Below, in pieces: positions 3,615 to 57,260 of a DNA stretch of 64,000 bases (position 1 is the first letter of the stretch; each line of letters opens with the position of its first letter). The stretch spans positions 1 to 64,000 of the IMG/VR virus record IMGVR_UViG_3300034980_000520; one strand, written 5' to 3'. Made by a program: the position numbers and the translations under genes. The notes beneath the pieces are model-generated. The model was not told the DNA's origin. It did no database searches and saw only the letters and a program-made list of their open reading frames with translations. The DNA comes from a virus.

Positions 3615-4595
3615 GTGAAAGTCACACAATCAAGACTGCAACAGATTATCTTAGAAGAGTACATAAAAGAAGAGGCTCTCGAAGAAGCATTGAGCCCACA
3701 ACAGGAAAAGGAAATGTTGGCATGGATCCGGAAGCAAGGGCCCAAACCTGATTGGCTCGGGGATAATTATGGACACAGCAAAAAAGTAAAATCTGGCCAG
3801 GTACCAGCGGATCCAAATGCCGATAGAGCGGCCCAGACGATGCCGATTGGTATGGATATTCCGTCAGACGACGCCCCAGAGCGCGATTATAGTGGTTTCC
3901 AAGATCGTTCCGGACCATCTGACAGCCCTTTGGCAGAGCCGGAAGACATGAGCGACGAAGACGTTCTAGCGTCCATTAGTCAAATGATTCAAGGGAGGGA
4001 TCCAGAAACGGTTCAGGCGCTCTTTCAGGCGGCATTTGAACAGATCCCGGGCATTGAGATGGGTATGGCAGACGACGAAGAAGAAGAACTCGGCACGCCG
4101 TACGGTGGTAAGGAGTTCGATCGCCGAAAGGGTCAATTTGGACAAGCCGGCTTCCGCGAGCAATTAGTAAATGAAGTATATGCGCGTATTCTGGAATCCG
4201 ATTTTCACCGCGGCTACGGCATGGCAGGAATTCCATGGAAGCGAGATATCCCCGACGAAGAAGTTGACGAAGGGCTTGATGATTATCCTGATTTTGAACC
4301 GGCATACGATGTCATGAAAGGTGAAGGCCCGCCAGAGGAAGCACCGTTCCACGACATGTCCGACGTCGAAGTTCCTTATGCAAGAGAACTGGCACAAAAG
4401 ATGTGGGATGGCGGCGAACGACTTCCAGATACCTCACAAACGGCGCAACTAAGCGCTAAGCAGGAAGCAAGTCTTATCGACACAATCGAAAAAGAATCGG
4501 GCGATCTACATGTTGACAACGACGCGTTGAGCGACCTAGTGATGGATGTAACAGAAGAATTGTGGGCAATTCAAGAGAAGTCGGAAGATGTATGA
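3615..4595 (+). CDS. Tagged acidic protein, candidate internal head protein
   Basis: 326 residues from a GTG start at 3615, chosen because it directly follows the previous stop (3611-3613) and yields the KVTQSRLQQIILEEYIKEE tag seen elsewhere. An upstream ATG at 3561 would overlap the previous gene by 53 bases. The body is very acidic (many Asp/Glu/Pro/Gly) and low in complexity. A second tag-like helix, GFREQLVNEVYARILE, lies at about residues 181-196. No enzymatic motif. It overlaps the terminase start by 4 bases (ATGA). A packaged or scaffold-associated protein is a reasonable guess. Confidence 0.65.
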   Translation: MKVTQSRLQQIILEEYIKEEALEEALSPQQEKEMLAWIRKQGPKPDWLGDNYGHSKKVKSGQVPADPNADRAAQTMPIGMDIPSDDAPERDYSGFQDRSGPSDSPLAEPEDMSDEDVLASISQMIQGRDPETVQALFQAAFEQIPGIEMGMADDEEEELGTPYGGKEFDRRKGQFGQAGFREQLVNEVYARILESDFHRGYGMAGIPWKRDIPDEEVDEGLDDYPDFEPAYDVMKGEGPPEEAPFHDMSDVEVPYARELAQKMWDGGERLPDTSQTAQLSAKQEASLIDTIEKESGDLHVDNDALSDLVMDVTEELWAIQEKSEDV

Positions 4596-6175
4596 GTTTC
4601 CAATTAGACAAGAAACAGAAAGTCAAAGAAATCTTAAAGTGCGGTAAGGATCCTTCTTACTTCCTCACCACATACGCCCGCATATCTCACCCGATGCACG
4701 GGCTGATTCTTTTTGATACATACGATTTCCAAGATGAACTCTTAAAAGACTTTAACGACTATCGCTTTAACGTTATTTTAAAAGCACGCCAATTGGGAAT
4801 TTCTACAATTACTGCCGGCTATATTGTATGGCTGATGTTATTTCATCGAGATAAAGCAATTCTCGTAATGGCAACCAAGTTTGCTACGGCAGGAAACCTT
4901 GTAAAGAAAGTTAAAGGTATCATGAGAAACGTGCCTGACTGGCTGAGCATCGCCACAATTTCGGTAGACAACAGAACATCTTTCGAGCTTTCAAATGGTT
5001 CATCGATTAAGGCTGCTTCTACTTCTGGGGATGCTGGGCGTTCTGAGGCACTGTCTCTCTTGGTTCTAGATGAGGCTGCTCACATTGAGGGATTGGAAGA
5101 ACTGTGGACTGGTTTGTATCCAACGCTGTCTACTGGTGGACGCTGTATTGCGCTCTCTACACCAAATGGTGTGGGGAATTGGTTTCATAAAACATGTAAT
5201 GATGCGGAATCCGGCACCAACAATTTTAATTTAACGACGCTTATGTGGGATGCGCACCCTGACAGGGATGAGGCTTGGTATAAAAAAGAAACCAAGAATA
5301 TGTCCAAGCGACAAATTGCACAAGAGCTTGAGTGCAACTTCAATACTTCGGGCGAAACTGTTATCGACCCAGAATGTATGGATTGGCTGCTGTCGAACGT
5401 GTGCGAACCAAAACATCGCACCGGCTTCGATCGTAATTTTTGGATCTGGGAAGAGTTCGATCCGAGTTGCAATTACTTGATGGTATCGGATGTTGCACGT
5501 GGCGATGGGGCAGACTACTCTACATTTCATATTATAAAATTGGAGACTCTGGAAGTGGTTGGAGAATATCAAGGAAAGCCAGCCCTCGATATGTATGCGG
5601 GGATGCTCAACCAAGTTGGAAGAGAATACGGTGGTTGTATGCTGGTTGTCGAAAACAACAATATCGGCTATTCGGTATTAGATAAGCTTATTGATTATGC
5701 ATATCCCAATCTATATCATTCAATTAAATCTACACACGAATATATCGAACAATATCAAGCAGAGTACACTAACTCTTCTGTCCCCGGCTTTACCACATCA
5801 ATGAAGACGCGCCCCCTTATCATCGCAAAACTAGAAGAATTCATCAGAAACAAACTAATTAAAGTGTATTCATCTCGCACCATCAACGAGATGAAGACAT
5901 TCATTTGGAGGAACGGTAAGCCACAAGCAATGAAGGGATACCATGATGATTTAATTATGGCGCTCGCAATTGCATGTTGGGTTCGCGATACTGCTCTACA
6001 AGTGAATGCTCGCGAGCTAAATTATCAAAAAGCGTATGCTAATTCAATCTATACTTCGAAAACTACAATGAATACACAAATACCTGGTCAAGAGGGCTAC
6101 AAAAAAAATGATATGTTTGATAAAATGAAGGAAGCTAGAGATACATATGAACAATATAAATGGATTATAAAGTGA
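4592..6175 (+). CDS. terL: Terminase large subunit (T4 gp17-like packaging ATPase/nuclease)
   Basis: 527 residues. It pumps DNA into the prohead at the portal and cuts concatemers. The N-terminal ATPase has a Walker-A-like loop KARQLGIST (residues 64-72) and Walker B LLVLDEAAH (D160, E161). The C-terminal RNase-H-fold nuclease shows D300 in MVSDVARGDGADYS, E354 in VVENNNIG and a late acidic pair in YHDDLIMAL. Length and motif order fit gp17-type terminases. ATG 4592 is preferred to an upstream frame start because it forms an ATGA overlap with the gene before. Confidence 0.95.
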   Translation: MSFQLDKKQKVKEILKCGKDPSYFLTTYARISHPMHGLILFDTYDFQDELLKDFNDYRFNVILKARQLGISTITAGYIVWLMLFHRDKAILVMATKFATAGNLVKKVKGIMRNVPDWLSIATISVDNRTSFELSNGSSIKAASTSGDAGRSEALSLLVLDEAAHIEGLEELWTGLYPTLSTGGRCIALSTPNGVGNWFHKTCNDAESGTNNFNLTTLMWDAHPDRDEAWYKKETKNMSKRQIAQELECNFNTSGETVIDPECMDWLLSNVCEPKHRTGFDRNFWIWEEFDPSCNYLMVSDVARGDGADYSTFHIIKLETLEVVGEYQGKPALDMYAGMLNQVGREYGGCMLVVENNNIGYSVLDKLIDYAYPNLYHSIKSTHEYIEQYQAEYTNSSVPGFTTSMKTRPLIIAKLEEFIRNKLIKVYSSRTINEMKTFIWRNGKPQAMKGYHDDLIMALAIACWVRDTALQVNARELNYQKAYANSIYTSKTTMNTQIPGQEGYKKNDMFDKMKEARDTYEQYKWIIK

Positions 6176-35009: not shown

Positions 35010-38000
35010 ATGGCAGACAATGAATTTTTAAATTGGGAATTGCCTTCGGGAGATCTAACCGCGGCAGATATTGCAGCGTTCCAAGAGAACTATAAGCTAG
35101 CCTTCGAATACTATCTTGTAGAGGGACAAGCAGAACTAGCGGCAACGTCGGGTTATTTGACACCCGGCGATCTCGCCGGCGAATCCAGTCTCCAACCGAT
35201 CATGTTCCCCAGTACAATTGAGGAGTTAGTACTCCAACTCGATGCGGATCTTCGATATGAGCCATCAGCAGTCTGGGTTGCCGGAAATTTAAAAACAGCA
35301 CCCAGCGATGCTACACGAATAAAAGCGGCGATGGAGGGATCCGAGAATCTGGGATTCTTGGCGCTCAGGCTTTACAAAGAGTTTCTCGCCAAGAAACTCG
35401 TCGATGAGGCTAACGCCGCGACAGGCTACGATGCTGGGCGGGGCGAGAGCGAAACCGATCCAGAAGCAATTGAGTCAGATCCCGCTGCCGAAGACGATAG
35501 AGAGGAGCAGGAGGCACTTAGAGCCCAAGCCCTCAAAAAAGCAGAAGATGAAGCAAGCCGCCAAGTTGCCCTCATCGACGACTTACAAACAGCTCATTTT
35601 GATGAGAAACACTTTGTACAATCAAATTTGGTAAATCTAATTGATTTAAAATTAAATGTTGTAGATTTTTATGAATCAAAAGCCTTCGCATATGTTGACG
35701 GAAAACCTAATGCATGCATTATGATGCAGGGAGATCCATTTAATTTTTTAAATCAGCTAACCACCTACCGTGACGATTTATATTTTAGGATGCCTTCGTC
35801 AGAAATAGCGAACTTGCAGCCTAAAATCAGACTTTACAAATCTGTTCCCGCGTACGCGACCACAGGGGAGAGCTTCAAGCTTAATGTTCCCATTCACTTT
35901 GATACCTCTTTTACTGGCGCCAATTTGCAATCTCTACTTGAGAATAAAAACAGGCGAGCAGTGGGAGTCGGCATCAAAAGCTTTTCAGTTGATTATACCG
36001 GTGTGGACGCATTTTCTATGCATAAATCTTTTGAAGCGACATTGAAGATTTATGCTGCTAGTATGGGCGAGCTATTTAAGCCGCGCCATCACGCACCTAC
36101 TGGAGTTATGTATCGTTATATTGATTTAGCGTTGATGGCAGATCCTTTGAAGCGCCCTTCGAAAACGCCCCTTAGTCCAAAGGCGATGGGCATCGCGGCA
36201 ACTGATGTATCGGCGCTGGATTTTGAGATCAAAGCACAACTTGGAATTAGTCCGCTTAGTAATGTGGGTGCCGCAAAAGCCACTTATGACAGGGTACTGA
36301 AAAGAAATTCCGTCACCCTTACGATGAAGGCAGTCGAGCATTCTTTTAAATTCGTTCAGGCGAATGGAGCAGTCGAGCTAACTATTAAATATATGCCCTA
36401 CGTAGAAAAAAGATTTGCTGGCTCCGATTACAATGTTCTTAGCGATCGAGAGTCTCTTAAATATAAACTGAAGCAAGAATTACATGCCAAGATCGCCGAA
36501 GAAACATGTGATGCGAAAGTTGACGAAAAGCAGATTAAAGCGCGCATTGAAGAAGAAAGAATGATTAATACCACGGCTGCAGCCAACTTAATAAAAGAAA
36601 TATCATGCGCATCCAAAATTCGATATTTGCCCCTTGATGCCCAAATCGTTCAGGACTTTATGGATCTCGGGCCTAAGCTAGATTGGGGGAAAACGATTAA
36701 GTTGGCGCCATATGCGGCATTTGTTGGAAAGGAGGGTAACCAAGAAGCTTTAAAAAAAGATATTGCAAAAGCTGCCACCAACACGAGCAAGAAATTCCGC
36801 GGCGCCCTTCAGACAGGCTTTACTACTCCCCTCACGTCCTCTGCAAGATTTATCTATTTGGGCGACTTGGTGGATTTACTTATGGCTAAGATGACAAAAG
36901 CAAATTCTGCAGGAGAAATGGGAATGCTTATTTTCGAACTTCTAGAAAAAGATCCCGACATCAAAAAGTTTAACGCGTCCCACCCACTCGATATTGAATC
37001 CTTAATAGAGCGCTTCGCGCAATCGAGCCAAGATTTTGGCAGATTGAGGGTGGTCCTCGGCCCTATTGAGATTGTTGATCCCGGAAGCCCTAGTGAAAAT
37101 ATTCGGGTTGTGAGTATAGGCGATTTGCCAATTCCAGTTAGTCTTTTGTTGGAATATATGGTAAAAATGGCAGGCGAGAAAAGCACTAAACACTTTGATT
37201 TTATAACATTCATCACACATCTGATTAAAACTACAATTAGCAACTGGCTAAATGATGATACAGCGTTTGACGGAACCTTGAGTCAGCGTGTGAGAATTCA
37301 ATCAACAACGATCACGGCTTTTGACGGCCAGTATGAAAAGGACGATTTGACACAGGAGCTAGTAGCGCTCAACGCCAAATTCAAACGCGCCGATCCCAGC
37401 CGCGTTGCTGGCAGCGCCGCAGGCACCCCAGCGGTTGGAGACGTCAAAAGAATACATGCGCATCGCTTATACATCGACGATATGGCAAAACCAGCGCTCG
37501 ACACTGCGCCCGGAAAAGATGTAGAAGATATTGATGTTCGAACAGAAACGACATATTTGGTATTCTACAGCACCGCAGCGTGCCCCATTGAAGCTACCGC
37601 CGCAGGCCGGGCTGAGCGCTCAGTCCATAGCTATATGGTGGGGAAAGATCGTGGAATTATTAAGGATATCCAATTAGACGTTTACAAAGATGACGGGGGA
37701 ATGAAGGCTTTACGATATTCACAGTCCAACAACGCTGGATTGTCGCAGCTGCATGAAATTTATAATGTTAATATCAAGACTTATGCCAACTTAAATATGT
37801 GGCCCGGGACGACAATATATGTAGATCCACGTGGCTGGGTCCCGGATTTGGATCTCAAGACGAGGGGGATATATGGAACTGTTGATGCCGTTGATGATTT
37901 GGGCCTAGGCGGATATTATAATGTCATAAAGTGTGGGCATGTGTTCGAAAGGGGGAATTTTGAAACTTCCATATTTGCCCAATGGTTCTCGAATGGCGGC

Positions 38001-38261
38001 ACCGGCCCCAAGCTGGAAGATGCTGAGCGCTCATCACCTGCCGAGGCTCCCGTTACTAAATGCGGTACCGGCGCCACAACACAGCCGCAAGGGACAGATA
38101 AGAAAGAACCCATGGGCCCGTGCGAAGGCAACTCCGCTCACCGTCTCCGTGCCCTAAAGGGAGCATACGGCATTCAGCAAGTGGCAAGACGTTTACTAGT
38201 CGATGCCGGAGACTTCGGACAGCATCCTTCTCCCACCACCAACGACACCGAGACTAACTAA
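35010..38261 (+). CDS. Large baseplate hub-like structural protein
   Basis: 1083 residues. After an acidic helical N-terminal region (about 1-200) it has VDFYESKAFAYVDGKPNACIMMQGDPFNFLNQLT and ANLQPKIRLYKSVP near residues 213-280. These look like hub proteins in which a beta domain begins with 'L-x-P-x-I-x-L-x-K'. The C-terminal third contains YNVNIKTYANLNMWPGTTIYVDP, then GYYNVIKCGHVFERGNFETSIFAQW, the typical end of a gp27/gpD-type hub (tube-like) domain. Probably forms the central hub and links tape measure to wedge. It ends in a long polar Cys-containing tail. Confidence 0.65.
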   Translation: MADNEFLNWELPSGDLTAADIAAFQENYKLAFEYYLVEGQAELAATSGYLTPGDLAGESSLQPIMFPSTIEELVLQLDADLRYEPSAVWVAGNLKTAPSDATRIKAAMEGSENLGFLALRLYKEFLAKKLVDEANAATGYDAGRGESETDPEAIESDPAAEDDREEQEALRAQALKKAEDEASRQVALIDDLQTAHFDEKHFVQSNLVNLIDLKLNVVDFYESKAFAYVDGKPNACIMMQGDPFNFLNQLTTYRDDLYFRMPSSEIANLQPKIRLYKSVPAYATTGESFKLNVPIHFDTSFTGANLQSLLENKNRRAVGVGIKSFSVDYTGVDAFSMHKSFEATLKIYAASMGELFKPRHHAPTGVMYRYIDLALMADPLKRPSKTPLSPKAMGIAATDVSALDFEIKAQLGISPLSNVGAAKATYDRVLKRNSVTLTMKAVEHSFKFVQANGAVELTIKYMPYVEKRFAGSDYNVLSDRESLKYKLKQELHAKIAEETCDAKVDEKQIKARIEEERMINTTAAANLIKEISCASKIRYLPLDAQIVQDFMDLGPKLDWGKTIKLAPYAAFVGKEGNQEALKKDIAKAATNTSKKFRGALQTGFTTPLTSSARFIYLGDLVDLLMAKMTKANSAGEMGMLIFELLEKDPDIKKFNASHPLDIESLIERFAQSSQDFGRLRVVLGPIEIVDPGSPSENIRVVSIGDLPIPVSLLLEYMVKMAGEKSTKHFDFITFITHLIKTTISNWLNDDTAFDGTLSQRVRIQSTTITAFDGQYEKDDLTQELVALNAKFKRADPSRVAGSAAGTPAVGDVKRIHAHRLYIDDMAKPALDTAPGKDVEDIDVRTETTYLVFYSTAACPIEATAAGRAERSVHSYMVGKDRGIIKDIQLDVYKDDGGMKALRYSQSNNAGLSQLHEIYNVNIKTYANLNMWPGTTIYVDPRGWVPDLDLKTRGIYGTVDAVDDLGLGGYYNVIKCGHVFERGNFETSIFAQWFSNGGTGPKLEDAERSSPAEAPVTKCGTGATTQPQGTDKKEPMGPCEGNSAHRLRALKGAYGIQQVARRLLVDAGDFGQHPSPTTNDTETN

Positions 38262-38275
38262 AATAAGGCTTTAAC

Positions 38276-39469
38276 ATGACATATTTTTTTCGAGAAGACA
38301 ATAGCGAAAGCACCATAGACTTATATAATAAGAAGAGAATATACGATAGTATAATCCGCGGCACTTCTCCAAATCTTGTTAATTTTCAATTTGCCGAAAA
38401 GGCACTTTATGGGAGAGTAGATCGCCTCTACCGCCCAATGGTACTTACTAACTATATACCGCTCCAACTAAAGGGCTTCGGCGCAGAAGGAACACCTGCC
38501 CAATCGGCACGTGCCTTAAACTTTGTGGCAGACGCTTTCGCTGATTTGAGAAATCAGTTTTTAAAAAAGAGGCTGACAAATGAAATCTCCCCAAATGAAG
38601 ATTTTCTGAGTAGCCCTGTTGTTTATAAAGCCTATGTGAATCCCAAGAAAACTTACGATGAATATATTCAGATATATTTAGAGGCATTTCAAGATGTTGT
38701 CCGCACCAAAAGGCTGACATTCGGCAATTTTCAAGAATTTATAGACACGATCATGCCATTTTTAATGAAAACGATTCGCAAAAAGCCATTCACCTATACT
38801 GCATTCGTCAAGAGTACATTTTGCCCAATCAACGCGTCCGGACTCGTGGTAGAGATAGCGGATATTGATCCCGTGAATGATGTAGAAAAGGTGAAGAAGT
38901 TCATCAAGAGCCCCAATTGGCAGTTTTATTTAACAGCATGCGGTAATTTTGGCTTCATGGTAGATCGCAACACCCCTTGGCGCCTCGTTGCTGACATCGG
39001 TTCGGCAAACATGCTACAGTATGCTGAGCGCTATGGAGTTTATTCGACTGATGGGGTTTTAGTAGCAGCATATGGCCGGGCATATAAAAACTACTTGACA
39101 ACCTTTCGCTCTATATTGTATAATATGTACATGAAACTAAAGCGCCCTCGATATTCTCGCTATGTTGAAGTTGATTCATTGGGAGGAAAGGTTGTGACAG
39201 TAACCCCGAAGCGATACAGGCCAGAAGACTATTTATTAGAATTTCCGGACTCTTACTTTTTAAGTCTCTATTGTAAAATTAGAATGGTGGAGGAGGAGTC
39301 GTCTTTTTCGGAAGCGCAGAAGTACCAATTAATAGACAACACTATCGAATTGGCACAGGTTAATCCGACTAGGGCGTTAGATACATTTGAAATTATTGTG
39401 AATAAAACGTTTGACTATAACGGCTCATTGAGTTACATTAAGGATACATTGGCAAAGCTGAGAGAGTAA
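38276..39469 (+). CDS. Hypothetical structural protein at end of tail module
   Basis: 397 residues, mostly helical. Starts MTYFFREDNSESTIDLYNKKR. Notable segments are NYIPLQLKGFGAEGTPAQSARALNFVADAF (about 60-90), LVVEIADIDPVNDVEKVKKFIKSPNW and FGFMVDRNTPWRLVADIGSANM (about 222-243). No enzyme motif or membrane segment. Its last base overlaps the start of the polymerase gene, marking the join between tail and replication modules. Likely baseplate or fibre-attachment component, by position. Confidence 0.62.
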   Translation: MTYFFREDNSESTIDLYNKKRIYDSIIRGTSPNLVNFQFAEKALYGRVDRLYRPMVLTNYIPLQLKGFGAEGTPAQSARALNFVADAFADLRNQFLKKRLTNEISPNEDFLSSPVVYKAYVNPKKTYDEYIQIYLEAFQDVVRTKRLTFGNFQEFIDTIMPFLMKTIRKKPFTYTAFVKSTFCPINASGLVVEIADIDPVNDVEKVKKFIKSPNWQFYLTACGNFGFMVDRNTPWRLVADIGSANMLQYAERYGVYSTDGVLVAAYGRAYKNYLTTFRSILYNMYMKLKRPRYSRYVEVDSLGGKVVTVTPKRYRPEDYLLEFPDSYFLSLYCKIRMVEEESSFSEAQKYQLIDNTIELAQVNPTRALDTFEIIVNKTFDYNGSLSYIKDTLAKLRE

Positions 39470-40671
39470 TGTATTTTCAATCTATTGATGATAAAGAGGA
39501 ATGTCTAGGCATATACCACGATGGTGTTTTGGAATTTGATAAAGACAGAATGCCCACGGATTTTTCCGGAATGAGAACGTGGAAATATTCAGGATCTATT
39601 ATAAATAAAGATGTAGAATATGGTTGGCTATGGGCATCGGGTAGCAACCTAAAGGAAATGTGCCCACCTGAACTACAGTCAGAATTGTCGCGCATGCAAA
39701 AGAAGATGTCGGCATTTAAAAAATCATTTGAGATCGCCAAAATCGATTTTCGTCAACATTGCTTTTTTGATCTGGTACCGCACGATTTTTTGACTGCTTT
39801 TTTAGAAGTTAAAAATAAGATAACTCAGCATGTATTTGAAACAACAGAAAAGCCTGTTATCTACGATCACCTGTGCCAATTGGAAAAACTGTTGTATAAG
39901 ATAAGGTATCAAGAGATGAACATTGACCCTACCGACTGTCGACACCTTTTCATCAAGTCTGCCCACCGATCCCGAGCAAACAAAATTATGGGCGGCTCTC
40001 GGTTCATCGATTACAACATTTTTGGAACAAAAACAGGACGATTAGCAACGTATCCGGGATCTCTCCCTCTACTGACGATGCAGAAAGAATTGCGTGCTTT
40101 CATTAAACCACGCAACGATTGGTTTATTTCTCTTGACTATAATGCAGCAGAGGCGCGAACTGTAATCGGATTACTTGGAAAGTCACAACCAACGGAAGAT
40201 GTGCACGAATGGCATATGGATACTATTTTTAAGAACACGGAAATCTCCACCCGAGAAGCTGCAAAAACCGCTTTTTTCGCGTGGCTGTATAATCCTGCAT
40301 CTAGTCAATTCACCCAACAGCCATACGAGAGAGATGAATTGCTGGAAAAGTTTTATAAAAATGGATGCATAGAAACTCTTTTCGGAAGATCGATAGAAGT
40401 AGATGAATTTAAAGCACTTAACTACCTGATTCAAAGCACGACGGCAGATTTAGTGAATGAGCGCGCCGTTGCATTAGACAGCTTCCTAGAAGGCACGAAA
40501 AGCTTTGTGTCGCACATCGTGCACGATGAGGTGGTTTTGGATATGCATGACGAGGATCGTCAATTGTTGCCTGAAATTAAAGATATCTTTGCGCAAAACC
40601 GTTTGGCGAAATTTGAGGTTAACTTTAAAGCGGGTAAAGATTATTATAACTTAGAAAGGTTGAACGTATGA
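39469..40671 (+). CDS. Miniature family-A DNA polymerase (palm/fingers only)
   Basis: 400 residues. Motif A is SLDYNAAEAR with D223; motif B is R262-x3-K266-x7-Y274; motif C is VHDEVV with D353/E354. The TKTGRLATYPG step before motif A corresponds to the T-x-TGRL of Pol I. No 3'-5' exonuclease or 5' nuclease domain is present, and the 170-residue N-terminal part is short for a thumb, so this is well under the usual 550-900 residues. The 5' nuclease is supplied separately at 44420. It probably does repair, gap filling or primer removal beside the DnaE polymerase, but could be specialised. The ATGA at its end overlaps the next gene. Confidence 0.85.
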   Translation: MYFQSIDDKEECLGIYHDGVLEFDKDRMPTDFSGMRTWKYSGSIINKDVEYGWLWASGSNLKEMCPPELQSELSRMQKKMSAFKKSFEIAKIDFRQHCFFDLVPHDFLTAFLEVKNKITQHVFETTEKPVIYDHLCQLEKLLYKIRYQEMNIDPTDCRHLFIKSAHRSRANKIMGGSRFIDYNIFGTKTGRLATYPGSLPLLTMQKELRAFIKPRNDWFISLDYNAAEARTVIGLLGKSQPTEDVHEWHMDTIFKNTEISTREAAKTAFFAWLYNPASSQFTQQPYERDELLEKFYKNGCIETLFGRSIEVDEFKALNYLIQSTTADLVNERAVALDSFLEGTKSFVSHIVHDEVVLDMHDEDRQLLPEIKDIFAQNRLAKFEVNFKAGKDYYNLERLNV

Positions 40672-41531
40672 TATCGATCGTGGGAATAGGTAATGCCGGC
40701 TCTGCCATCGCGGAGAAGTTTAAGTCGCAAAAGAACAACTATAAGGTGTATCAGCTAAATAGCAAATGTGGTAAATCCAAATCTTGCCATAAACTGAAAG
40801 AATTTGACACACCAGAAGAATACGAGAACAGCATACCGAATCTTAAAACATTCTTTAAAGATATCACCGACAAGGTACAAGTATTTGTGGTGGGCTCCTC
40901 CAAAAGCTCCGGCTATGCTTTGGGTATCTTGGAGCAAATAAAAGATAAAAATTTAGAGATATTCTATATAAAGCCTGATACCGAGTTGCTGACAGGTATT
41001 CCCAAGCTGTTAGAAAACATGACATATGGAATACTACAAGAATATGCCCGCTCAGCTATGTTTACATCGCTGACAGTTTTTTCGAATTACGAGATTGAAA
41101 AAAATCTGCCCAATATATCAATTAAAAATTATTTTGATACCCTTAATCAAACCATTTTTTCTTCCGTTCATTATCTCAATTTTTTTACGCACACGGAGCC
41201 GGAAATAGGACAAGTTTCGCGCCCCGCTCCGATTAACAGGATCCGCAGTGTTGGGATGCTTAATTTAAAAGATATGTCAGAAAAATGGCTCTTTAACCTT
41301 GACAGCCCGCGTGAAACATGCTATTATATATGTATAAATCAGGATAGATTAGAAAAAGAATCGGGCTTGCATAAACAGTTGGTAGATATGCTCAAGGAGA
41401 AGCCTCGAAATGCTTACAGAAAGATCTCATATGGTATATGGGAGACAAATTTACAAGACTTTGGGTTCTGCGTTGCCCACACTAACGCAATTCAACAACA
41501 AACTACCCTTGACAAGCTAGAGCAAGGGTGA
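40668..41531 (+). CDS. Divergent tubulin/FtsZ-like protein (tentative)
   Basis: 287 residues. The N-terminus ISIVGIGNAGSAIAEKF (residues 2-18) fits the first nucleotide loop of FtsZ/tubulin. VFVVGSSKSSGYALGILEQI (72-91) falls where the GGTGTG tubulin signature lies and keeps G76, S77, S80/S81 and G82. It is followed by a strand (LEIFYIKPDT), a helix with ARSAMFTSLTVFSNYEIEK (127-145), and a helix NYFDTLNQTIFSSVHYLNFFT. Order and spacing match the FtsZ GTPase domain. The signature is degenerate and I see no clear T7 catalytic acid, so GTP hydrolysis is doubtful. Phage tubulins position DNA in jumbo phages; a role here is inference. A generic Rossmann protein is the alternative. Confidence 0.5.
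   Translation: MISIVGIGNAGSAIAEKFKSQKNNYKVYQLNSKCGKSKSCHKLKEFDTPEEYENSIPNLKTFFKDITDKVQVFVVGSSKSSGYALGILEQIKDKNLEIFYIKPDTELLTGIPKLLENMTYGILQEYARSAMFTSLTVFSNYEIEKNLPNISIKNYFDTLNQTIFSSVHYLNFFTHTEPEIGQVSRPAPINRIRSVGMLNLKDMSEKWLFNLDSPRETCYYICINQDRLEKESGLHKQLVDMLKEKPRNAYRKISYGIWETNLQDFGFCVAHTNAIQQQTTLDKLEQG
41299..41327 (+). promoter_or_regulatory. Possible internal sigma-70 promoter
   Basis: TTGACA (41299-41304), 17 bases, TATTAT (41322-41327), inside the tubulin-like gene, 265 bases before the SSB ATG. Because it lies in coding sequence it may be fortuitous; a better-placed promoter follows at 41509. Confidence 0.3.
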
Positions 41532-41591: not shown

Positions 41592-42359
41592 ATGTCAATC
41601 AATATGGAACTAATGAAGAAGAAGCTCGCATCTCTGCGTGGAGAAGGCGGCAACGAAAACTCAGTGTGGTTTAAGCCACAAGAGGGCGAACAAGTGGTTC
41701 GCATCGTCCCCACTGCAGATGGGGATCCACTTAAGGAAATGTTTTTCCACTACAATGTGGGTGATCACAAGGGGGGCATTGTATGTCCTAAACGAAACTT
41801 TGGCGATCGTTGCCCCGTCTGCGAATTTGCATCCTCAGTATGGAAAGAGGCTGTAGCAACAAATGACGAAGAAGCGAAGAAGCTTGCAAAGTCATTGTTT
41901 GTACGTGCGCGATACTTCTCCCCCGTAGTACTTCGGGGATCAGAAGAGGAAGGAATTAAATTCTACGGCTACGGAAAGCGCGCCTACGAACTTCTTTTGG
42001 GATACATTTTGGATCCCGAATACGGTGACATCACCGACAAACTGGAAGGTACCGATATTACCTTAGTGTATACTAAGCCCACATCCCCCGGTGCCTATCC
42101 ACAAACAAGCCTTAAGATGAGAAGAAATACTTCGACTCTACTTGAGGATCAAGACGCTATCCCCGCCCTCCTTGATCGTATGCCCGATTTTGATAGCCTC
42201 TTTGAGCGACTTTCCCCCGAGGAAATAGACGCGATTCTTGATGAGCAACTTGCTGGTGATCTTAGTGCGGAAACACGATCATCGGAAACTGGGCGTTATA
42301 ATGTTGACACTCAAAACCCAGTTGATAAGGCATTTGATGAGCTGATGGCCACCAAGTAG
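41592..42359 (+). CDS. Single-stranded DNA-binding protein (T4 gp32-like)
   Basis: 255 residues, TAGGAG upstream. Coats single strands at the fork and in recombination. N-terminal lysine-rich LMKKKLASLRG is the cooperativity-arm type. VWFKPQEGEQVVRIVP begins the OB core. The zinc knuckle is HYNVGDHKGGIVCPKRNFGDRCPVCEF (H73 region; C-x9-C-x2-C). This is followed by ARYFSPVVLRG and GYILDPEYGDITD. The acidic C-terminal tail expected of SSBs is present but mixed (VDKAFDELMATK at the very end). Neighbouring RecA/UvsX and its own promoter fit a replication role. Confidence 0.87.
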   Translation: MSINMELMKKKLASLRGEGGNENSVWFKPQEGEQVVRIVPTADGDPLKEMFFHYNVGDHKGGIVCPKRNFGDRCPVCEFASSVWKEAVATNDEEAKKLAKSLFVRARYFSPVVLRGSEEEGIKFYGYGKRAYELLLGYILDPEYGDITDKLEGTDITLVYTKPTSPGAYPQTSLKMRRNTSTLLEDQDAIPALLDRMPDFDSLFERLSPEEIDAILDEQLAGDLSAETRSSETGRYNVDTQNPVDKAFDELMATK

Positions 42360-42744: not shown

Positions 42745-43896
42745 ATGGCAAAGAAAGTTACGGCTAAAGCAGGACGTGTAGCAATGCAGGATCTGATGAA
42801 ATTAGTCAATAAAAAAGCCGGCAGAAATGTCGCACACGATTTAACGGGAGATAATCCCACGTCCGTCAAGGAATGGATCCCAACAGGATCAAGATGGCTT
42901 GATTCTATTATCTGCAAGGGGTACGTCGCCGGCATCCCAGTAGGCAAGGTTACAGAGATCGCCGGGTTGGAATCAACAGGCAAATCTTACATGGCTGCGC
43001 AGATCGCAGCAAACGCCCAGAAACAGGGCAAGCTTGTCGTTTACTTCGATTCTGAGTCTGCCATCGATCCAACCTTCTTAGAGCGCACAGGGTGCGATTT
43101 AGGGCGTTTAATGTACGTTCAGGCGTCCTCTGTGGAGTTTGTGCTGGAGACGATCGAAGAACTTCTCGGTGCGTCCGATGACAAGCTCGTATTTATCTGG
43201 GATTCGTTGGCGTTTACGCCATCTGTGTCTGATGTCGAAGGAGACTTCAATCCCCAGTCGTCAATGGCGGTTAAGGCACGTATTCTGGCTAAGGGAATGT
43301 CTAAGCTGGTAATCCCCGTTGCTGATAGACAGGCGACACTGATCGTTCTGAATCAGCTTAAAACAAACATCCCGCAAGGACCGAACGCTAGAATTGTTGC
43401 GATGACAACACCATACACAACACCCGGCGGGAAGGCAATGCATTATTCATATTCATTGCGCATATGGCTAACAGGGCGAAAGGCAAAGTCTTCCTTTATT
43501 GAAGACGAGAAGGGCTTTCGAATCGGATCAGAGGTTAAGGTAAAACTTGAGAAATCTCGCTTCGGCACTCAAGGTAGATCGTGCGCATTCCGCATTCTAT
43601 GGGGCACCGAAGAGATTGGTATCCGAGACGAGGAAAGCTGGTTTGACGCTATTAAGGGCTCCGAGAGTCTTACCTCTGCCGGAGCATGGTATACGCTAGC
43701 TACTCCAGATGGATACACCAAGAAATTTCAGCCATCTAAGTGGACTGACTTGATTACATCTGATGAAGAGTTCCGCGGAAAGGTTATTCAAATAATGGAT
43801 GAAGAGATCGTTCAAAAGTTTGAGAAAAGAGAAGGCGATGCAGCCAGTTTTTATGAAGATCCGGAAGACTTGACAGTCCCCGTAACTTCAAAATAA
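42745..43896 (+). CDS. uvsX: RecA/UvsX-family recombinase
   Basis: 383 residues, AAGGAGG upstream. ATP-dependent strand-exchange protein for recombination-dependent replication and repair. Walker A is GLESTGKS (residues 74-81), the acidic residue after YFDSESAID (about 95-103) follows, and Walker B is KLVFIWDSLAF. The L2-like region reads NQLKTNIPQGPNAR then TPYTTPGGKAMHYSYSLRIWL, close to both RecA and UvsX. Length 383 is nearer UvsX (391). The acidic C-terminal tail is present. Preceded by SSB as in several T4-like modules. Confidence 0.92.
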   Translation: MAKKVTAKAGRVAMQDLMKLVNKKAGRNVAHDLTGDNPTSVKEWIPTGSRWLDSIICKGYVAGIPVGKVTEIAGLESTGKSYMAAQIAANAQKQGKLVVYFDSESAIDPTFLERTGCDLGRLMYVQASSVEFVLETIEELLGASDDKLVFIWDSLAFTPSVSDVEGDFNPQSSMAVKARILAKGMSKLVIPVADRQATLIVLNQLKTNIPQGPNARIVAMTTPYTTPGGKAMHYSYSLRIWLTGRKAKSSFIEDEKGFRIGSEVKVKLEKSRFGTQGRSCAFRILWGTEEIGIRDEESWFDAIKGSESLTSAGAWYTLATPDGYTKKFQPSKWTDLITSDEEFRGKVIQIMDEEIVQKFEKREGDAASFYEDPEDLTVPVTSK

Positions 43897-43955: not shown

Positions 43956-44420
43956 ATGAATATATTTGTACTGGATAGGGATCCGGTAATTGCAGCCACA
44001 ATGATGTGCGACAAACACGTGGTAAAGATGATAGTAGAAACTGCGCAGATGCTGTGTACGATTGCTCGTAATATGGGCTATGATGGCGCGCCCTACCGTT
44101 CAACCCACAAGAATCACCCTTGCACCGTCTGGGCTGCCAAGACATCTTCAAACTGGAGTTGGCTGCTACGTCATGGATTTGCTTTGTGTGATGAATATAC
44201 AAAGAGATATGGTAAAAATCATAAATCTAAAAAAGTTATAGAGTGGTGTAGCCAAATGCCGACTCGCCCCAAGCCGGGACCACTGACACCGTTCGCCCAA
44301 GCTATGCCCGAACAATACAGAAACGAGTGTGTTGTGACGGCTTACCGCGATTATTACGTGGGAGACAAATCTTCTTTCGCAACATGGAAAACACAAACGC
44401 CAAACTGGTGGAGAGTATAA
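43956..44420 (+). CDS. Conserved phage protein of unknown function (CDKHVVKM family)
   Basis: 154 residues; GTAGGAGG ribosome site. Begins MNIFVLDRDPVIAATMMCDKHVVKMIVETAQML. Further conserved-looking steps are STHKNHPCTVWAAKTSSNWSWLL (about 49-71), CDEYTKRYGKNHKS and PEQYRNECVVTAYRDYY. The His/Asn/Trp/Lys-rich pattern is familiar from many phage genomes, but I know no established function. The paired His and Lys residues hint at nucleic-acid processing. Transcribed from the consensus promoter just upstream; overlaps the exonuclease start by one base. Confidence 0.72.
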   Translation: MNIFVLDRDPVIAATMMCDKHVVKMIVETAQMLCTIARNMGYDGAPYRSTHKNHPCTVWAAKTSSNWSWLLRHGFALCDEYTKRYGKNHKSKKVIEWCSQMPTRPKPGPLTPFAQAMPEQYRNECVVTAYRDYYVGDKSSFATWKTQTPNWWRV

Positions 44421-45391
44421 TGACACAAACTGATAAAAAACGCGTCATCATTATTGATGCGCTAAACATGTTCTTAAGAGCATACATCGTGGATCCGTCT
44501 CTTTCTTCTAATGGGCAACCAATTGGTGGACTTAAAGGTTCGATAAAGATCCTCCAGAAACTCGTACGGATAAGTCAGCCCGACTCTATCGTTATTGTGT
44601 GGGACGGTCCGAATGGATCGCGAAAACGCAAAACCATGGACAAGAATTACAAGGCAGGACGCAAGCCGATCCGCCTGAATCGAGCCTTCCATAATCTAAC
44701 GGATAATGAAGAGCTACAAAATAGAATTTGGCAGCAAACTAGAGTGATTGAGTATCTGAATGAGATGCCAGTTGTTCAGATTATGCTCCCTGAGATTGAA
44801 GCCGACGATGTCATTTCTCATGTGAGCCAGCTCAGTCATTATGATGGCTGGCAAAAGGTAATCATTTCAAATGATAAAGATTTCCTCCAGTTGTGTGACG
44901 ATGAGACGGTTGTTTACCGCCCCACGGTAGATGTGCTCTTAAATAAGGTGCGAATCGTTGATGAATATGGTATTCATCCAACTAATATGGCATTGGCCCG
45001 AGCGATCGCCGGCGACACTTCTGATAACCTTCCCGGGATCAAAGGAGCGGGACTGGCAACTATTAAGAAAAGATTGTCTTTTCTCGCATCTGAAAAAGAT
45101 TATACAATTCAAGAGGTTATAGAATTCTGCGAAAATTCAGCCAATAAATTGAAATTTTTTACTGGTATTGTTGAGGGAAGAGAGATAATTGAGCATAATT
45201 ATAGAATGATGCAACTTTATTCTCCGATGCTCTCAATTAACTCAAAAGATTTTGTAAAAACAGCAGTCGTAGATTTCGAATGTAGCTTCAATAAGACAGC
45301 CATTATCAAAAAGATGCGAGAAGATGGTTTCGGCGAATTAAATTGGGAAGAGTTAAGAACTCGTCTTAATAATATAGCAGTAAGCTGTTGA
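44420..45391 (+). CDS. 5'-3' exonuclease / flap endonuclease (Pol I N-terminal type)
   Basis: 323 residues from ATG 44420, which shares a base with the preceding TAA; longer in-frame starts would overlap the previous gene. Removes RNA primers and flaps. Metal-binding acids are D in VIIIDALNMFLRAY, WDGPNGSRKRK, PEIEADDVIS, SNDKDFLQL and the helix-hairpin-helix GDTSDNLPGIKGAGLATIKK. All key FEN/T4 RNase H elements are present in order. It complements the polymerase at 39469, which lacks this domain. Confidence 0.9.
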   Translation: MTQTDKKRVIIIDALNMFLRAYIVDPSLSSNGQPIGGLKGSIKILQKLVRISQPDSIVIVWDGPNGSRKRKTMDKNYKAGRKPIRLNRAFHNLTDNEELQNRIWQQTRVIEYLNEMPVVQIMLPEIEADDVISHVSQLSHYDGWQKVIISNDKDFLQLCDDETVVYRPTVDVLLNKVRIVDEYGIHPTNMALARAIAGDTSDNLPGIKGAGLATIKKRLSFLASEKDYTIQEVIEFCENSANKLKFFTGIVEGREIIEHNYRMMQLYSPMLSINSKDFVKTAVVDFECSFNKTAIIKKMREDGFGELNWEELRTRLNNIAVSC

Positions 45392-45446: not shown

Positions 45447-46817
45447 TTGAACGAAAATGTAGGTTTTGCGAAGTATGGAAAAGTCTTTCAAGAGGGCTTG
45501 GTTCAACTCATTTTAGATGATCGCCCATTCGCCGATCAGATCTCTGAAGTGTTGGATATATCTTTCTTAGAATTAGAATACCTCCGAGTTTTTGCACGCA
45601 AGGTTATCAACTATCGCAACCGCTATTCTAAGCACCCCTCCCACGAAGCTGTCATAACAATGCTTCGCATTGAATTGGATGCGGAAGACGAGGTTGTGAA
45701 ACAGCAAGTAAAAGAGTATTTTGCGAAGATTCACGCATCCGAAGTCCAAGATGCAGAATATATTAAAGAACAGTCGTTAGATTTTTGTCGCAAGCAAAAC
45801 CTAAAAGAAGCCATGCTAAAGTCAGTCGATCTTCTCCAAAATAGTTCTTTTGATGAAATTTCGAAAGTCATCAATGAATCTTTAAAGCTGGGATCCGAAA
45901 CCAATTTTGGATACGATTATCTGGCAGATTTTGAAGAGCGCTTTTTACCCAAATTTAGAAATCCTGTATCGACAGGCTGGCAAGACTTAGATTCAATCAC
46001 TTCCGGCGGCTTAGGTAAGAGCGAGCTTGGGGTGGTGATCGCTCCCACCGGCGCCGGAAAATCAATGGTTCTCGTTCACTTGGGAGCGCAAGCTGTAGTG
46101 GAAGGGCAAGTAGTAGTCCACTATACCCTAGAGTTGCAGGACACTATCATTGCAAAGCGTTATGACAGTTGTATTACCGGATATCCTCTCTCTGACTTGA
46201 CATCCTTTAAGGAGGAGGTTTTTGACGAGATCAAAGATATCGAGGGGCGCCTGATCGTAAAAGAGTACCCCACCAAATCAGCGTCCACAGAGACGATCCG
46301 CAACCACCTTAGTCGTTTGCACAAAAGAGGCATTAAGCCCGGCTTGATTATAGTAGACTATGCAGACTTGCTTAAGCCGGTGGTTGTTCGGAAAGAAAAG
46401 AGAGACGAGCTTGGCTCCATTTATGAGGAATTGAGAGCCATTTCTACTGAGTACTCTTGTCCGATATGGACAGCATCCCAAACAAACCGCGCTGGGTTGA
46501 GTGCGGAGGTGATCACGATGGAGCAAATCTCAGAAGCCTTTAATAAATGCTTTGTCGCAGATTTCATATTTTCCGTATCACGTACAATTGAAGACAAACA
46601 AAACAACCAAGGAAAGATTTTTATTGCAAAAAATAGAAACGGACCGGACGGAATGGTGTATGATATATTCATGGACACCTCTAATGTCAAAATAAGAGTC
46701 TTACCAAGGGTAACGCACCCTAGCACAAATTCTGTAGCGACGAGCCCAGTTGTATTGACAGCCGGCATGCAGCAGAACTTGCTAAAAAGCAAATATGAAA
46801 AATTTAAAAGGAAATAA
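45447..46817 (+). CDS. Replicative DNA helicase (DnaB / T4 gp41-like)
   Basis: 456 residues from TTG 45447, supported by GAGGAG seven bases upstream; no ATG is as well placed. N-terminal helical domain (about 1-170), then a RecA-like core: GWQDLDSITSGGLGKSELGVVIAP, Walker A TGAGKS (residues 201-206), the LEL catalytic step in VVHYTLELQD, Walker B LIIVDYADLL, and SQTNRAGLS as sensor. A later NRNGPDG is the arginine-finger-like element. It would load at forks with the two polymerases. No primase gene is seen in this window. Confidence 0.92.
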   Translation: MNENVGFAKYGKVFQEGLVQLILDDRPFADQISEVLDISFLELEYLRVFARKVINYRNRYSKHPSHEAVITMLRIELDAEDEVVKQQVKEYFAKIHASEVQDAEYIKEQSLDFCRKQNLKEAMLKSVDLLQNSSFDEISKVINESLKLGSETNFGYDYLADFEERFLPKFRNPVSTGWQDLDSITSGGLGKSELGVVIAPTGAGKSMVLVHLGAQAVVEGQVVVHYTLELQDTIIAKRYDSCITGYPLSDLTSFKEEVFDEIKDIEGRLIVKEYPTKSASTETIRNHLSRLHKRGIKPGLIIVDYADLLKPVVVRKEKRDELGSIYEELRAISTEYSCPIWTASQTNRAGLSAEVITMEQISEAFNKCFVADFIFSVSRTIEDKQNNQGKIFIAKNRNGPDGMVYDIFMDTSNVKIRVLPRVTHPSTNSVATSPVVLTAGMQQNLLKSKYEKFKRK

Positions 46818-53828: not shown

Positions 53829-56800
53829 GTGAATCGTATAAATTCTAAAATTAAATTCGTAGGCTTGCACGCACACAGCGTGGCAGGATCTATTTTTGAT
53901 GCCATTGGGTATCCGCAAGATCATATGGATTTTGCATATGAAAACGGCTGTGACGCCTTGGCATTAACCGATCATGGAAACATGAATGGTTTGGCATATC
54001 AGGTACTGCATGCAAAAAAGATGCAGGAAGCAGGAAAGGAGTTCAAGCCTATCTTTGGTTGTGAGGCATACTTCACGCCATCCATTGCTGAATGGCATGA
54101 TGCCTACAACAAGGCGATGGAAGACAAGAAGCGCGCCCGCTCGATCAAGAAGGACGAGCAATCTGGCGCCACCGTCGAAGACGAAGGCGACAGCAAAAAG
54201 ATTCAAGGGATTCTTAAGCGCCGCCGACATCTAGTGCTGCTGGTGCAGAACCAGACAGGGCTTAATAATCTATTCAAGCTTGTATCGGAATCATATCAGC
54301 CAGAGAACTTTTACCGCTACCCCCGAATTGACTACGCACTGCTGAAGAAGTACAATGAGGGTATCATAGCCTCGTCAGCATGCCTAGGAGGCGTTTATGC
54401 CGGCAACTACTGGGAGCATCGGGAGGAAGGCGAAGAAGCCGTCCTAGAGGCAATGCGAGAGTCTACGCGACAAATGGTTGACATCTTTGGAGATCGCTGG
54501 TACGCCGAGATTCAGTGGAACAATATTAAAGAGCAACATGAGTTAAATCAATATGTCATTCAGATTGCTAAAGAGTTTGGCGTTGGACTGGTGACGACAG
54601 CCGACAGCCATTACCCCAACCCTGACGCTTGGAAGGACAGAGAGCTTTACAAGCGTCTTGGTTGGCTTGGTAAGGGGCGCCCATCTTGGGCAGAGGAGGA
54701 GTCGCAACTACCTGCAGGCGTTGAAGAAATTGGTTATGAGTTGTATCCAAAGAATGGCGATCAGATGTGGGAGAGCTATAAACAATACTCCGAGGAACAA
54801 GGCTTTGAGTATGACGATGAGATAGTATTAGAGAGCATCGAAGAGACACACAGAATTGCGTTCGATCGAATTGAATCATTCTTGCCAGATAACACGGTGC
54901 GTTTGCCAGAGTTCGTTGTGCCAGCCGGCTATACTGCCACGCAAGCGCTCGTCCAGTATGCCCTTGAGGGCTTAAAAGAAAGAGGTATGCACACCAACAA
55001 GGAGTATACCGATAGACTCAAGCGTGAATTGAATGTGATTGATGATCGAGGGTTTTCCAAGTATTTCTTAACGATGAAATCTATTGTTGATGTTGCATCG
55101 CAAATGATGCTCCCCGGCCCAGGCAGAGGATCTGCCGCCGGTTCTCTAGTGGCGTATGCTCTTGATATCACGCAAGTTGATCCCATCAAGCATGGGCTCC
55201 TCTTCTCTCGCTTTCTGCGCTCAGACGCCACGGACTACCCTGATATCGATTACGATGTGTCGGACAGCATGGCACTCAAGGAGAAGCTCGTTGACATGTG
55301 GGGAGCCGATTGTGTTGCGCCTATTTCTAACTGGAACACGCTGCAGCTCAAAAGTTTAATTAAAGACATCTCAAAGCTTTATGATATTCCATTTACGGAG
55401 GTGAATACGGTTACCTCCATTATGATCCGCGAAGCCACACCCGAAGCAAAGCGCAAGCACGGAATCAAGTCAGGCGTGTATGCGCCCACGTGGGAGGAGG
55501 TGATCGAGTTTTCACCATCCCTGCAATCCTATCTTGCGAAACACCCAGCAGTTAAAACACACGTTGAAGGGCTAGTGGGGCAAGTTCGCTCTTGCTCTCG
55601 CCACGCCGGCGGCGTTGTGATTGCAGAGAATCTGGACGAAAACATGCCGCTTATTAATTCTGGTGGAGTGCGACAGGCACCATGGGCAGAGGGGCAGAAC
55701 GTCCGACATCTTGAACCAATGGGATTCATTAAGTTTGATTTGCTAGGACTGTCGACGCTAAAGATGATGGAGGGTTGTATCGAGCATATTCTCCAGCGCC
55801 ACCACGGAGTCGAGAAACCTACCTTCGCACAAGTTAGAGAATATTATGACAAGAACCTTCACCCCGACGTCATTGATACCAATAATCAAGAGGTGTATGA
55901 AAATGTATTCCACAAAGGTAAGTGGGCAGGCATCTTTCAGTTTACCGAGCAGGGAGCACAAAAGTTCTGTGTTCGCGCCAAGCCTCGCAACATCATCGAT
56001 GTGTCGGCTATCACTTCCATCTATCGTCCTGGGCCGCTTGCAGCTAATGTCCACGACGAATACGTAGAAGCAAAAGAGAGCCCACATCATATCAAGTATT
56101 TGAACGATGACTCGCACGATATCACGCAGGAGACATTCGGTTTCCTAATTTTCCAAGAGCAAATTGCTCTGCTAGCACACAAGCTTGGAGGCTTGACTCT
56201 CGATGAGGGTAATATGCTTCGCAAGGTGCTGACTAAGAAGGGTACCGGTAAGGGATCCGTGAAGGGGAGGCTACATGATAAGTTCATTTCCGGCTGCTTT
56301 AAGAACAAGATCTCAAAAGACGAGGCACAAGCGCTTTGGGACAAGTTTGAATATTTCTCAGGATATGGTTTTAACAAGTCTCACGCAGTATCTTACAGCT
56401 TGATTTCGTTTCAGTGCGCGTGGCTTTGGAACTACTATCCTGCCGAATGGATGGCAGCGTTTCTAGACAAAGAGCCAGAGAGTCGGAAGGAAAAGGCAAT
56501 CAATACTGCCAAGAAGTTTGGGTTTGAGATTGAGCCTTTGGACGTTAACAAATCGGGCACGGTGTGGGAGATTAGTGCTGACGGCAAGACACTGATCCAG
56601 CCTCTTACTTCTATTAAGGGATTGGGAATGTCAGCTATTGAACAAATTTTAGCTAACCGTCCATTCCTGAATGCAGAGGATCTTTTATTCCGAGAAAGTG
56701 TTTCATATAGCAAGCTTAATAAAAAGGCGTTAGATGCGCTGTGTCGCGGAGGCGCCTTGGACAATATTGTTGATGATAGATTCTCGGGACGCAAGCATTT

Positions 56801-57260
56801 TTGGTCGGCTTGTGTGGTGGATCGGCCGAAGAGCCTCAAGAAATTCGGAGAGAATATGGAAACATATTACCCAGAAGGAGACTTCAGCGAAGAAGAGGTA
56901 ATTCAGTTTAAAACGGATCTAACAGGAGTGTTCCCTCTTAACTTGGTGGTTAGCGCCGAGATGATTCAAGCGCTCCAAGAAAGATTCATCCCGCCCATCT
57001 CCGAGTTCGATCAAGAATTGCAGGTGTGCTGGTTTATCCCAAGAGCCATCACCGCACGGAAGACTAAAAATGGAAAACTTTATTGGATCTTAGACGTAGT
57101 TGACTCCAACAACGAACTAACTAGAATAAGATGCTGGGGAGTTAAGCCAGAGAAAGATCGTTTGCATTTGAATCGCGCTTACATGGCGAGATTGAATTAC
57201 GATCCTAATTGGGGCTTTAGTACCTACGCTATTGGTAGAACATTCAAACTGTTAGGGTAG
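53829..57260 (+). CDS. dnaE: DNA polymerase III alpha subunit (family C, DnaE)
   Basis: 1143 residues from GTG 53829 (no ATG nearby). Replicative polymerase. The PHP domain has LHAHSVAGSIFDAIGYP, ALTDHGNMNGLAYQ, GCEAYF and TTADSHYPNP, so its metal ligands look intact. The palm has PGRGSAAGSLVAYALDITQVDP and PDIDYD (D472, D474). Later steps are SRHAGGVVI, FQEQIALLAHKLGGLTLDEGNMLRKVLTKK and GYGFNKSHAVSYSLIS. The C-terminal OB domain (ARKTKNGKLYWILDVVDSN) is present. Length is close to bacterial DnaE1 (about 1160). No beta clamp gene is seen here, so the host clamp may serve. Confidence 0.96.
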   Translation: MNRINSKIKFVGLHAHSVAGSIFDAIGYPQDHMDFAYENGCDALALTDHGNMNGLAYQVLHAKKMQEAGKEFKPIFGCEAYFTPSIAEWHDAYNKAMEDKKRARSIKKDEQSGATVEDEGDSKKIQGILKRRRHLVLLVQNQTGLNNLFKLVSESYQPENFYRYPRIDYALLKKYNEGIIASSACLGGVYAGNYWEHREEGEEAVLEAMRESTRQMVDIFGDRWYAEIQWNNIKEQHELNQYVIQIAKEFGVGLVTTADSHYPNPDAWKDRELYKRLGWLGKGRPSWAEEESQLPAGVEEIGYELYPKNGDQMWESYKQYSEEQGFEYDDEIVLESIEETHRIAFDRIESFLPDNTVRLPEFVVPAGYTATQALVQYALEGLKERGMHTNKEYTDRLKRELNVIDDRGFSKYFLTMKSIVDVASQMMLPGPGRGSAAGSLVAYALDITQVDPIKHGLLFSRFLRSDATDYPDIDYDVSDSMALKEKLVDMWGADCVAPISNWNTLQLKSLIKDISKLYDIPFTEVNTVTSIMIREATPEAKRKHGIKSGVYAPTWEEVIEFSPSLQSYLAKHPAVKTHVEGLVGQVRSCSRHAGGVVIAENLDENMPLINSGGVRQAPWAEGQNVRHLEPMGFIKFDLLGLSTLKMMEGCIEHILQRHHGVEKPTFAQVREYYDKNLHPDVIDTNNQEVYENVFHKGKWAGIFQFTEQGAQKFCVRAKPRNIIDVSAITSIYRPGPLAANVHDEYVEAKESPHHIKYLNDDSHDITQETFGFLIFQEQIALLAHKLGGLTLDEGNMLRKVLTKKGTGKGSVKGRLHDKFISGCFKNKISKDEAQALWDKFEYFSGYGFNKSHAVSYSLISFQCAWLWNYYPAEWMAAFLDKEPESRKEKAINTAKKFGFEIEPLDVNKSGTVWEISADGKTLIQPLTSIKGLGMSAIEQILANRPFLNAEDLLFRESVSYSKLNKKALDALCRGGALDNIVDDRFSGRKHFWSACVVDRPKSLKKFGENMETYYPEGDFSEEEVIQFKTDLTGVFPLNLVVSAEMIQALQERFIPPISEFDQELQVCWFIPRAITARKTKNGKLYWILDVVDSNNELTRIRCWGVKPEKDRLHLNRAYMARLNYDPNWGFSTYAIGRTFKLLG

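Follow-up and report, generated by a model that had tools for sequence, protein, structure and literature searches.

To our knowledge, the tubulins known from phages are single proteins, PhuZ and the TubZ of phage c-st, encoded in jumbo phages or plasmid prophages. These proteins have been reviewed (PMC7950403), marine jumbo phages with a phiKZ-type tubulin have been described (PMC9123017), and two distinct FtsZ/tubulin representatives were found among jumbo phages (PMC7824862). The open-access literature yielded neither a phage with two tubulins nor a polymerase-coupled tubulin family, a weak negative given the incomplete coverage. In this work, a stretch of 64,000 nt of viral DNA (positions 1 to 64,000 of the IMG/VR record IMGVR_UViG_3300034980_000520, hereafter the window) was analyzed, with the focus on the open reading frame (ORF) at 40668-41531. 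Its product was named TubB, and the name TubA was given to a second, canonical tubulin of related phages. The original prediction had proposed for this ORF a divergent tubulin/FtsZ-like protein with a link to replication. Judging from the predicted structures, TubB almost certainly has the tubulin/FtsZ fold; it is a tubulin-fold protein that fails both the T4 and the T7 signatures and stands outside the named families FtsZ, PhuZ and TubZ.

Two structures were predicted with AlphaFold2, one for the TubB of the window (25 sequences; predicted local distance difference test, pLDDT, 72; predicted template modelling score, pTM, 0.77) and one for a second family member about 48% identical to it (84 sequences; pLDDT 90, pTM 0.89). 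In both models the whole chain adopted the tubulin/FtsZ fold, with the same order of elements (S1-H1 ... S4-H3-S5-H4-S6-H5-H7), helix H7 at residues 152-174 and a compact C-terminal domain. The chain stopped about 14 residues past S10 in the two models, and no H11 was present. When the models were compared with the PDB using Foldseek, the top 50 matches were FtsZ, TubZ or tubulin without exception, with template modelling (TM) scores of about 0.6-0.73 over roughly 300 or more columns. The best E-values were 4.2e-11 for the window TubB model and 2.9e-13 for the second model, the latter against the TubZ of Bacillus cereus (4ei7). Among the viral models of BFVD, the best matches were a phage 'FtsZ' and the PhuZ of Noxifer. 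The divergent tubulin/FtsZ-like fold was thus confirmed at the level of structure prediction. Since AlphaFold2, although run template-free, might echo known folds, evidence was sought separately in the sequences.

Searches of Pfam, PHROG, NCBIfam and PDB sequences with a single TubB retrieved no recognizable family, only sub-threshold noise of the Rossmann type; profile searches of these libraries likewise pointed to no function, and neither PF00091 nor the NCBIfam FtsZ model matched the protein. At family level, some members matched phrog_28377 (3e-5), a family with no function attached. A profile of 143 TubB members was aligned by hhalign with nine PhuZ sequences over residues 2-98 (P 1e-3), T1 and, after it, T4 (opposite GGASGS) falling into the correct register, and with 11 FtsZ sequences over residues 132-168, which comprise S6 and H7 (P 0.0095). 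The score against PhuZ, 32.7, was reached by none of 300 column shuffles (15.2 +/- 2.5) and that against FtsZ by one of 300, column shuffling being a lenient null because it breaks the local order. As a positive control, PhuZ against FtsZ gave P 3e-8. Profile comparison thus agreed weakly with FtsZ/tubulin, with these two alignments in register and no match in Pfam. Homology to FtsZ/tubulin appears supported but remote; the main evidence comes from the fold.

All of the motif strings quoted in the original prediction were present in the translation, namely GIGNAGSA (residues 6-13), GSSKSSGYALGI (76-87), IFYIKPD (98-104), ARSAMFTSLTVFSN (127-140) and NYFDTLNQ (154-161), and the invariant residues, the ratio of nonsynonymous to synonymous substitutions (dN/dS, about 0.03-0.06) and the shuffles place them beyond chance. 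Residues G6, G8, G76, P103, D104, N140, N160, H168, N171, G181 and I192 were invariant in 143 distinct relatives, and position 156 was aromatic (F/Y) in 142 of them. N140 aligned with the Asn of the FtsZ 'IPND', and F/Y156-N160 with the H7 motif of FtsZ and tubulin; the guanine-contact residues on S6 and H7 are kept in TubB, an equivalence taken from the hhalign register and not from a solved complex. This conservation suggests that TubB is likely to bind guanine nucleotide.

The catalytic loops were altered, as had been foreseen. T4 read G-[SAG]-[SGA]-x-[ST]-[SA] in the 143 sequences, not the tubulin signature GGGTG(S/T)G, with S80 being S/T in 142/143 and S77 and S78 mostly Ser. The T7 catalytic acid was indeed absent from the window ORF, and no conserved Asp was found at the D209 equivalent in the 143 sequences. 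This claim was refined by the finding that position 188, one residue off the expected FtsZ D212, was E or D in 115/143 relatives, the window having Pro there. On the TubB family tree, at least 17 changes of state were counted at this position, a behavior that seems unlike that of a fixed catalytic residue. Hydrolysis would probably be weak or dispensable in TubB, with the nucleotide turned over poorly. Since PhuZ D190A, without the catalytic Asp, still forms stable GTP-dependent filaments (PMC4244570), the lost T7 acid need not mean lost polymerization.

PhuZ of the phiKZ-like jumbo phages (PMC4244570, PMC3678025) is, like TubB, a phage-encoded tubulin fold, and it gave the best profile match, with T1-T4 in register. 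However, TubB is shorter (279-287 residues against 314-342), lacks the C-terminal H11 and the acidic tail, does not conserve the T7 acids, sits in a polymerase-gp32 operon and is not recovered as a PhuZ relative by sequence search. Chimallin (phage nucleus) had no match in seven records of the TubB phage group, in a search without a positive control. Bacterial and archaeal FtsZ share with TubB the fold (Foldseek 4e-11) and the S6-H7 segment with the guanine-contact Asn, whereas GGGTGTG, NxDxxD and H9 are missing from TubB and the FtsZ family models do not detect it. The TubZ of Bacillus plasmids and phage c-st (PMC7950403) also shares the fold, but TubB is shorter and has no C-terminal tail; no TubR-like neighbor was seen, nearly all loci being flanked by PolA and gp32, and centromere repeats were not searched for. 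As in BtubA/BtubB and alpha/beta-tubulin, the phage group encodes a pair of tubulins in one genome, and their catalytic loops are asymmetric; unlike in BtubA/BtubB, the tubA and tubB genes lie far apart and evolve at very different rates. A comparison in terms of function is offered by AlpC, the actin of the CGP3 prophage (PMC4446434), a cytoskeletal protein of phage origin that is linked to efficient replication of the viral DNA; it differs from TubB in belonging to the actin superfamily and in having its own DNA adaptor, AlpA.

In IMG/VR, 46 TubB loci were retrieved with a single sequence, at least 551 with an alignment and 539 when a later scan was led by another sequence, and the lowest pairwise identity among 123 distinct members was 41%. 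No relative was detected in 50,697 annotated phage records (tblastn with two family members, the divergent one giving chance matches only), which yielded no PhuZ either, nor among 72,556 plasmids, nor in cellular genomes when GTDB was scanned with the family. Four family-led scans, each comprising the best 80 loci only, revealed no deeper branch with canonical T4/T7. The carriers are large, uncultured and probably marine phages; a marine origin is suggested by a contig of a TaraRedSea metagenome-assembled genome that carries the DnaE of the group at 64%.

Both the setting among replication genes and the close association with a small polymerase, here called mini-PolA, had been claimed for the window and proved to be family-wide. 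The two genes share a 4-nt ATGA overlap, found in 164/164 distinct loci; mini-PolA lay directly 5' of TubB in all 114 loci with room for it, and a gp32-like gene followed in 128 of 129. In the reverse search, starting from mini-PolA, TubB was downstream in 75/75 relatives. The sole exception to the TubB-gp32 order was L044, where an ORF of 383 residues is inserted (L044:5941-7092). Motifs A, B and C of mini-PolA were recognizable as DYNAAEAR, R...K.......Y and HDE.

Moreover, canonical tubulins were searched for with PF00091 in four related records. Three of these contained TubA with a score above the Pfam cut-off; the fourth was the window's own record, which ends before the site is reached. 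TubA was found at 171 viral loci, had no match in the annotated phage records and aligned with the FtsZ profile at P 1.3e-13. Among 72 sequences, T4 was GGGGGTGSS in 72 and T7 was FDSKD in 71-72, with FDxKD in 72/72. The protein is unusually conserved (88-100%) and has an N-terminal extension of about 62 residues, of which 19 are acidic and one is basic. Its gene adjoins an SbcC/SbcD-like gene, upstream of the terminase. At L426:178-3315, SbcD-like and SbcC-like domains (phrog_100, phrog_77) are joined in one ORF of 1045 residues, whose end is overlapped by the start of TubA by 4 nt.

Both tubulins were present in 10/10 contigs long enough for both, 39-45 kb apart, and the TubA contigs without TubB had at most 34 kb of downstream sequence. 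No TubA was found in the window or in its 72-kb record, which starts 4.56 kb before the terminase. Since the TubA of relatives ends 3.6-6.4 kb upstream of the terminase, we infer that the gene lies just beyond the left end of this contig. In the record G005 (194,231 bp) the TubA gene is split across both contig ends, so that this nominally linear record amounts to a complete genome, circular as assembled (permuted), with about 194 kb; other records of the group have 191-196 kb, and the 72-kb record represents part of a genome. When the same genomes were compared, identity was 88-96% for TubA and 48-61% for TubB, a gap that speaks for distinct roles, with TubA as a canonical filament under strong constraint and TubB as a companion that evolves faster, is catalytically degenerate and has a tie to the polymerase. 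For a descent of TubB from TubA by duplication, hhalign gave P 0.036 with T4 out of register. The features of the locus and the TubA genes are collected in Table 1.

Table 1. Features of the TubB gene and protein, its neighbors in the window, and TubA genes in related records
Feature	Coordinates	Strand	Basis
TubB, divergent tubulin-fold protein, 287 aa	40668..41531	+	ATG-start ORF; >550 homologous loci; AlphaFold2 and Foldseek
T1-like loop, residues 6-11 GIGNAG	40683..40700	+	G6, G8 invariant 143/143; S1-H1 junction in model
T4 position, residues 76-83 GSSKSSGY (FtsZ: GGTGTG)	40893..40916	+	G76 143/143; hhalign register against PhuZ GGASGS
T5 region, residues 102-110 KPDTELLTG	40971..40997	+	P103, D104 invariant; G110 141/143
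S6 Asn140, counterpart of guanine-contacting Asn in FtsZ 'IPND'	41085..41087	+	143/143; hhalign to FtsZ, residues 132-168
Core helix H7, residues 152-174	41121..41189	+	Helix in both AlphaFold2 models; N160 143/143, F/Y156 142/143
T7 loop region, residues 178-190 PEIGQVSRPAPIN	41199..41237	+	Without both FtsZ aspartates; P188, most relatives E/D
Compact C-terminal (activation-like) domain, residues 191-273	41238..41486	+	DSSP of models; without FtsZ H9 and C-terminal H11
Mini DNA polymerase A (mini-PolA), 400 aa, no exonuclease domain, translationally coupled partner	39469..40671	+	PF00476 2.6e-13
ATGA stop/start overlap of mini-PolA and TubB	40668..40671	+	Exactly 4 nt in 164/164 distinct loci
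gp32-like single-stranded DNA-binding protein, next gene 3' of TubB	41592..42359	+	PF08804 / phrog_1192; 128/129 loci
UvsX-like recombinase	42745..43896	+	phrog_97 7.8e-61
5'-3' exonuclease / FEN-like, start uncertain	44327..45391	+	phrog_107 2.4e-28
DnaB-like replicative helicase	45447..46817	+	phrog_19 1.5e-73
DnaE-type DNA polymerase III alpha	53829..57260	+	phrog_405 1.7e-233; in 7/7 records tested
Large terminase	4562..6175	+	phrog_2
TubA, 379 aa	L424:1749-2888 (G003)		PF00091
TubA	L426:3312-4448 (G008)		PF00091
TubA	G005:C1:193193-194230		PF00091
TubA	G011:C1:12243-13373		PF00091

Two DNA polymerases are encoded in one phage, the DnaE-type polymerase III alpha, which is probably the replicative enzyme, and the exonuclease-less mini-PolA, in addition to a separate FEN-like exonuclease. 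Mini-PolA and this exonuclease look like a gap-filling pair. Directly 5' of mini-PolA, an ORF of 397 residues (38276-39469) keeps its position and evolves very fast, with a mean distance of 1.19 against 0.6 for TubB. The window also contains an ORF of 1083 residues without any Pfam or PHROG family (35010-38261) and an unusually long tail sheath of 1110 residues (26129-29461). A stop suspected within the capsid gene of relatives turned out to be an alignment-end artefact.

The best overall explanation, to which a probability of about 0.45 is assigned, is that TubB is a GTP-binding tubulin, made with a repair-type polymerase, that organizes phage replication with TubA. TubB would bind guanine nucleotide, would self-associate or join TubA head to tail (a step with about even odds) and would turn the nucleotide over poorly, like catalytically defective PhuZ. 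Produced together with the gap-filling mini-PolA, it might help to place, hold or organize the replicating phage DNA and the lagging-strand and repair machinery, either in concert with the TubA filament or as its regulator; this part is proposed tentatively. A precedent is the prophage actin needed for efficient viral replication (PMC4446434). It is more doubtful that the two proteins form a two-component tubulin cytoskeleton, in which TubB would link, cap or co-polymerize with the slow-evolving TubA at replication sites. That TubB might regulate a polymer or fail to hydrolyse nucleotide, as proposed in the original prediction, is plausible, and becomes more so with TubA encoded by these phages.

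Several observations weigh against this explanation. The changes in T4 and T7 are large enough that TubB could have lost nucleotide binding or polymerization, and the unequal conservation of TubA and TubB poorly fits a strict 1:1 heterodimer. The truncated contig of the window contains no TubA, and co-residence in this particular phage is a deduction. The 4-nt overlap is a common feature of phage operons, and the correlation of TubB and mini-PolA distances (mirror-tree) was no higher than that of other gene pairs, so that it does not demonstrate that TubB specifically contacts the polymerase.

TubB might also be non-polymerizing and serve mini-PolA as an accessory subunit of tubulin fold or as a regulator that senses nucleotide, with the 1:1 ratio set by translational coupling. 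The invariable overlap, the strict co-occurrence in both search directions, the similar rate of divergence of the two genes, the degenerate T4/T7 and the lack of a C-terminal polymer-stabilizing tail agree with such a role. Nevertheless, it is rather unlikely. The partial correlation was lower for TubB-PolA (0.40) than for PolA-gp32 (0.54) or TubB-UvsX (0.49), and conserved residues are found on the face that carries the nucleotide as well as on that of T7/H10 (G181, P186, I192, R193, L234, H235, K243, K245 and N248), as in a longitudinal interface. An improbable alternative is a decoy of host FtsZ, which would enter or cap the division filaments and block division, the cell being kept as a replication factory. 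An FtsZ-like fold with degenerate catalytic loops is the expected look of a capping homologue, TubB evolves fast while TubA is nearly static, as for a protein facing changing hosts, and other phages inhibit FtsZ with unrelated proteins, such as Kil (PMC3961180) and Gp0.4 (PMC13423816). However, the obligatory place between polymerase and gp32 suggests replication over host takeover, the dN/dS is low, and the bottom-face motifs are unlike those of FtsZ.

Slightly more improbable still is an alternating TubA/TubB heteropolymer resembling alpha/beta-tubulin, in which the T7 acids of TubA would hydrolyse the TubB nucleotide and the acid-less T7 of TubB would spare that of TubA. The occurrence of two tubulins in all ten informative genomes, only TubA having the canonical T4 and FDSKD, and the precedent of BtubA/BtubB heterodimers (PMC2746283) speak for it. 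By contrast, the rates of the two proteins are very unequal, their genes lie 40 kb apart in different modules, unlike operon-encoded heterodimers, and an acid near T7 is retained in 115/143 TubB. Finally, a plain Rossmann NAD-binding protein resembling FtsZ by chance is a highly improbable reading, which the predicted fold already refutes. It would draw on weak Pfam/NCBIfam matches to GFO_IDH_MocA (0.09) and aspartate dehydrogenase (0.09), whose scores are far under the cut-offs; none of the top 50 PDB matches was a Rossmann protein, those in BFVD appeared only at E > 2e-3 and over parts of the chain, and the dehydrogenase reading was rejected.

If the more doubtful two-component cytoskeleton is real, these phages would have a viral two-tubulin system directly tied to the replication machinery. 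Should TubB work with the replisome, it would connect a cytoskeletal filament to DNA replication in a way open to experiment, and would offer a case of prokaryotic tubulin specialization like that of alpha- versus beta-tubulin. Additionally, tubulins can hide among the 'unknown' genes of phages, TubB being recognized by no sequence library.
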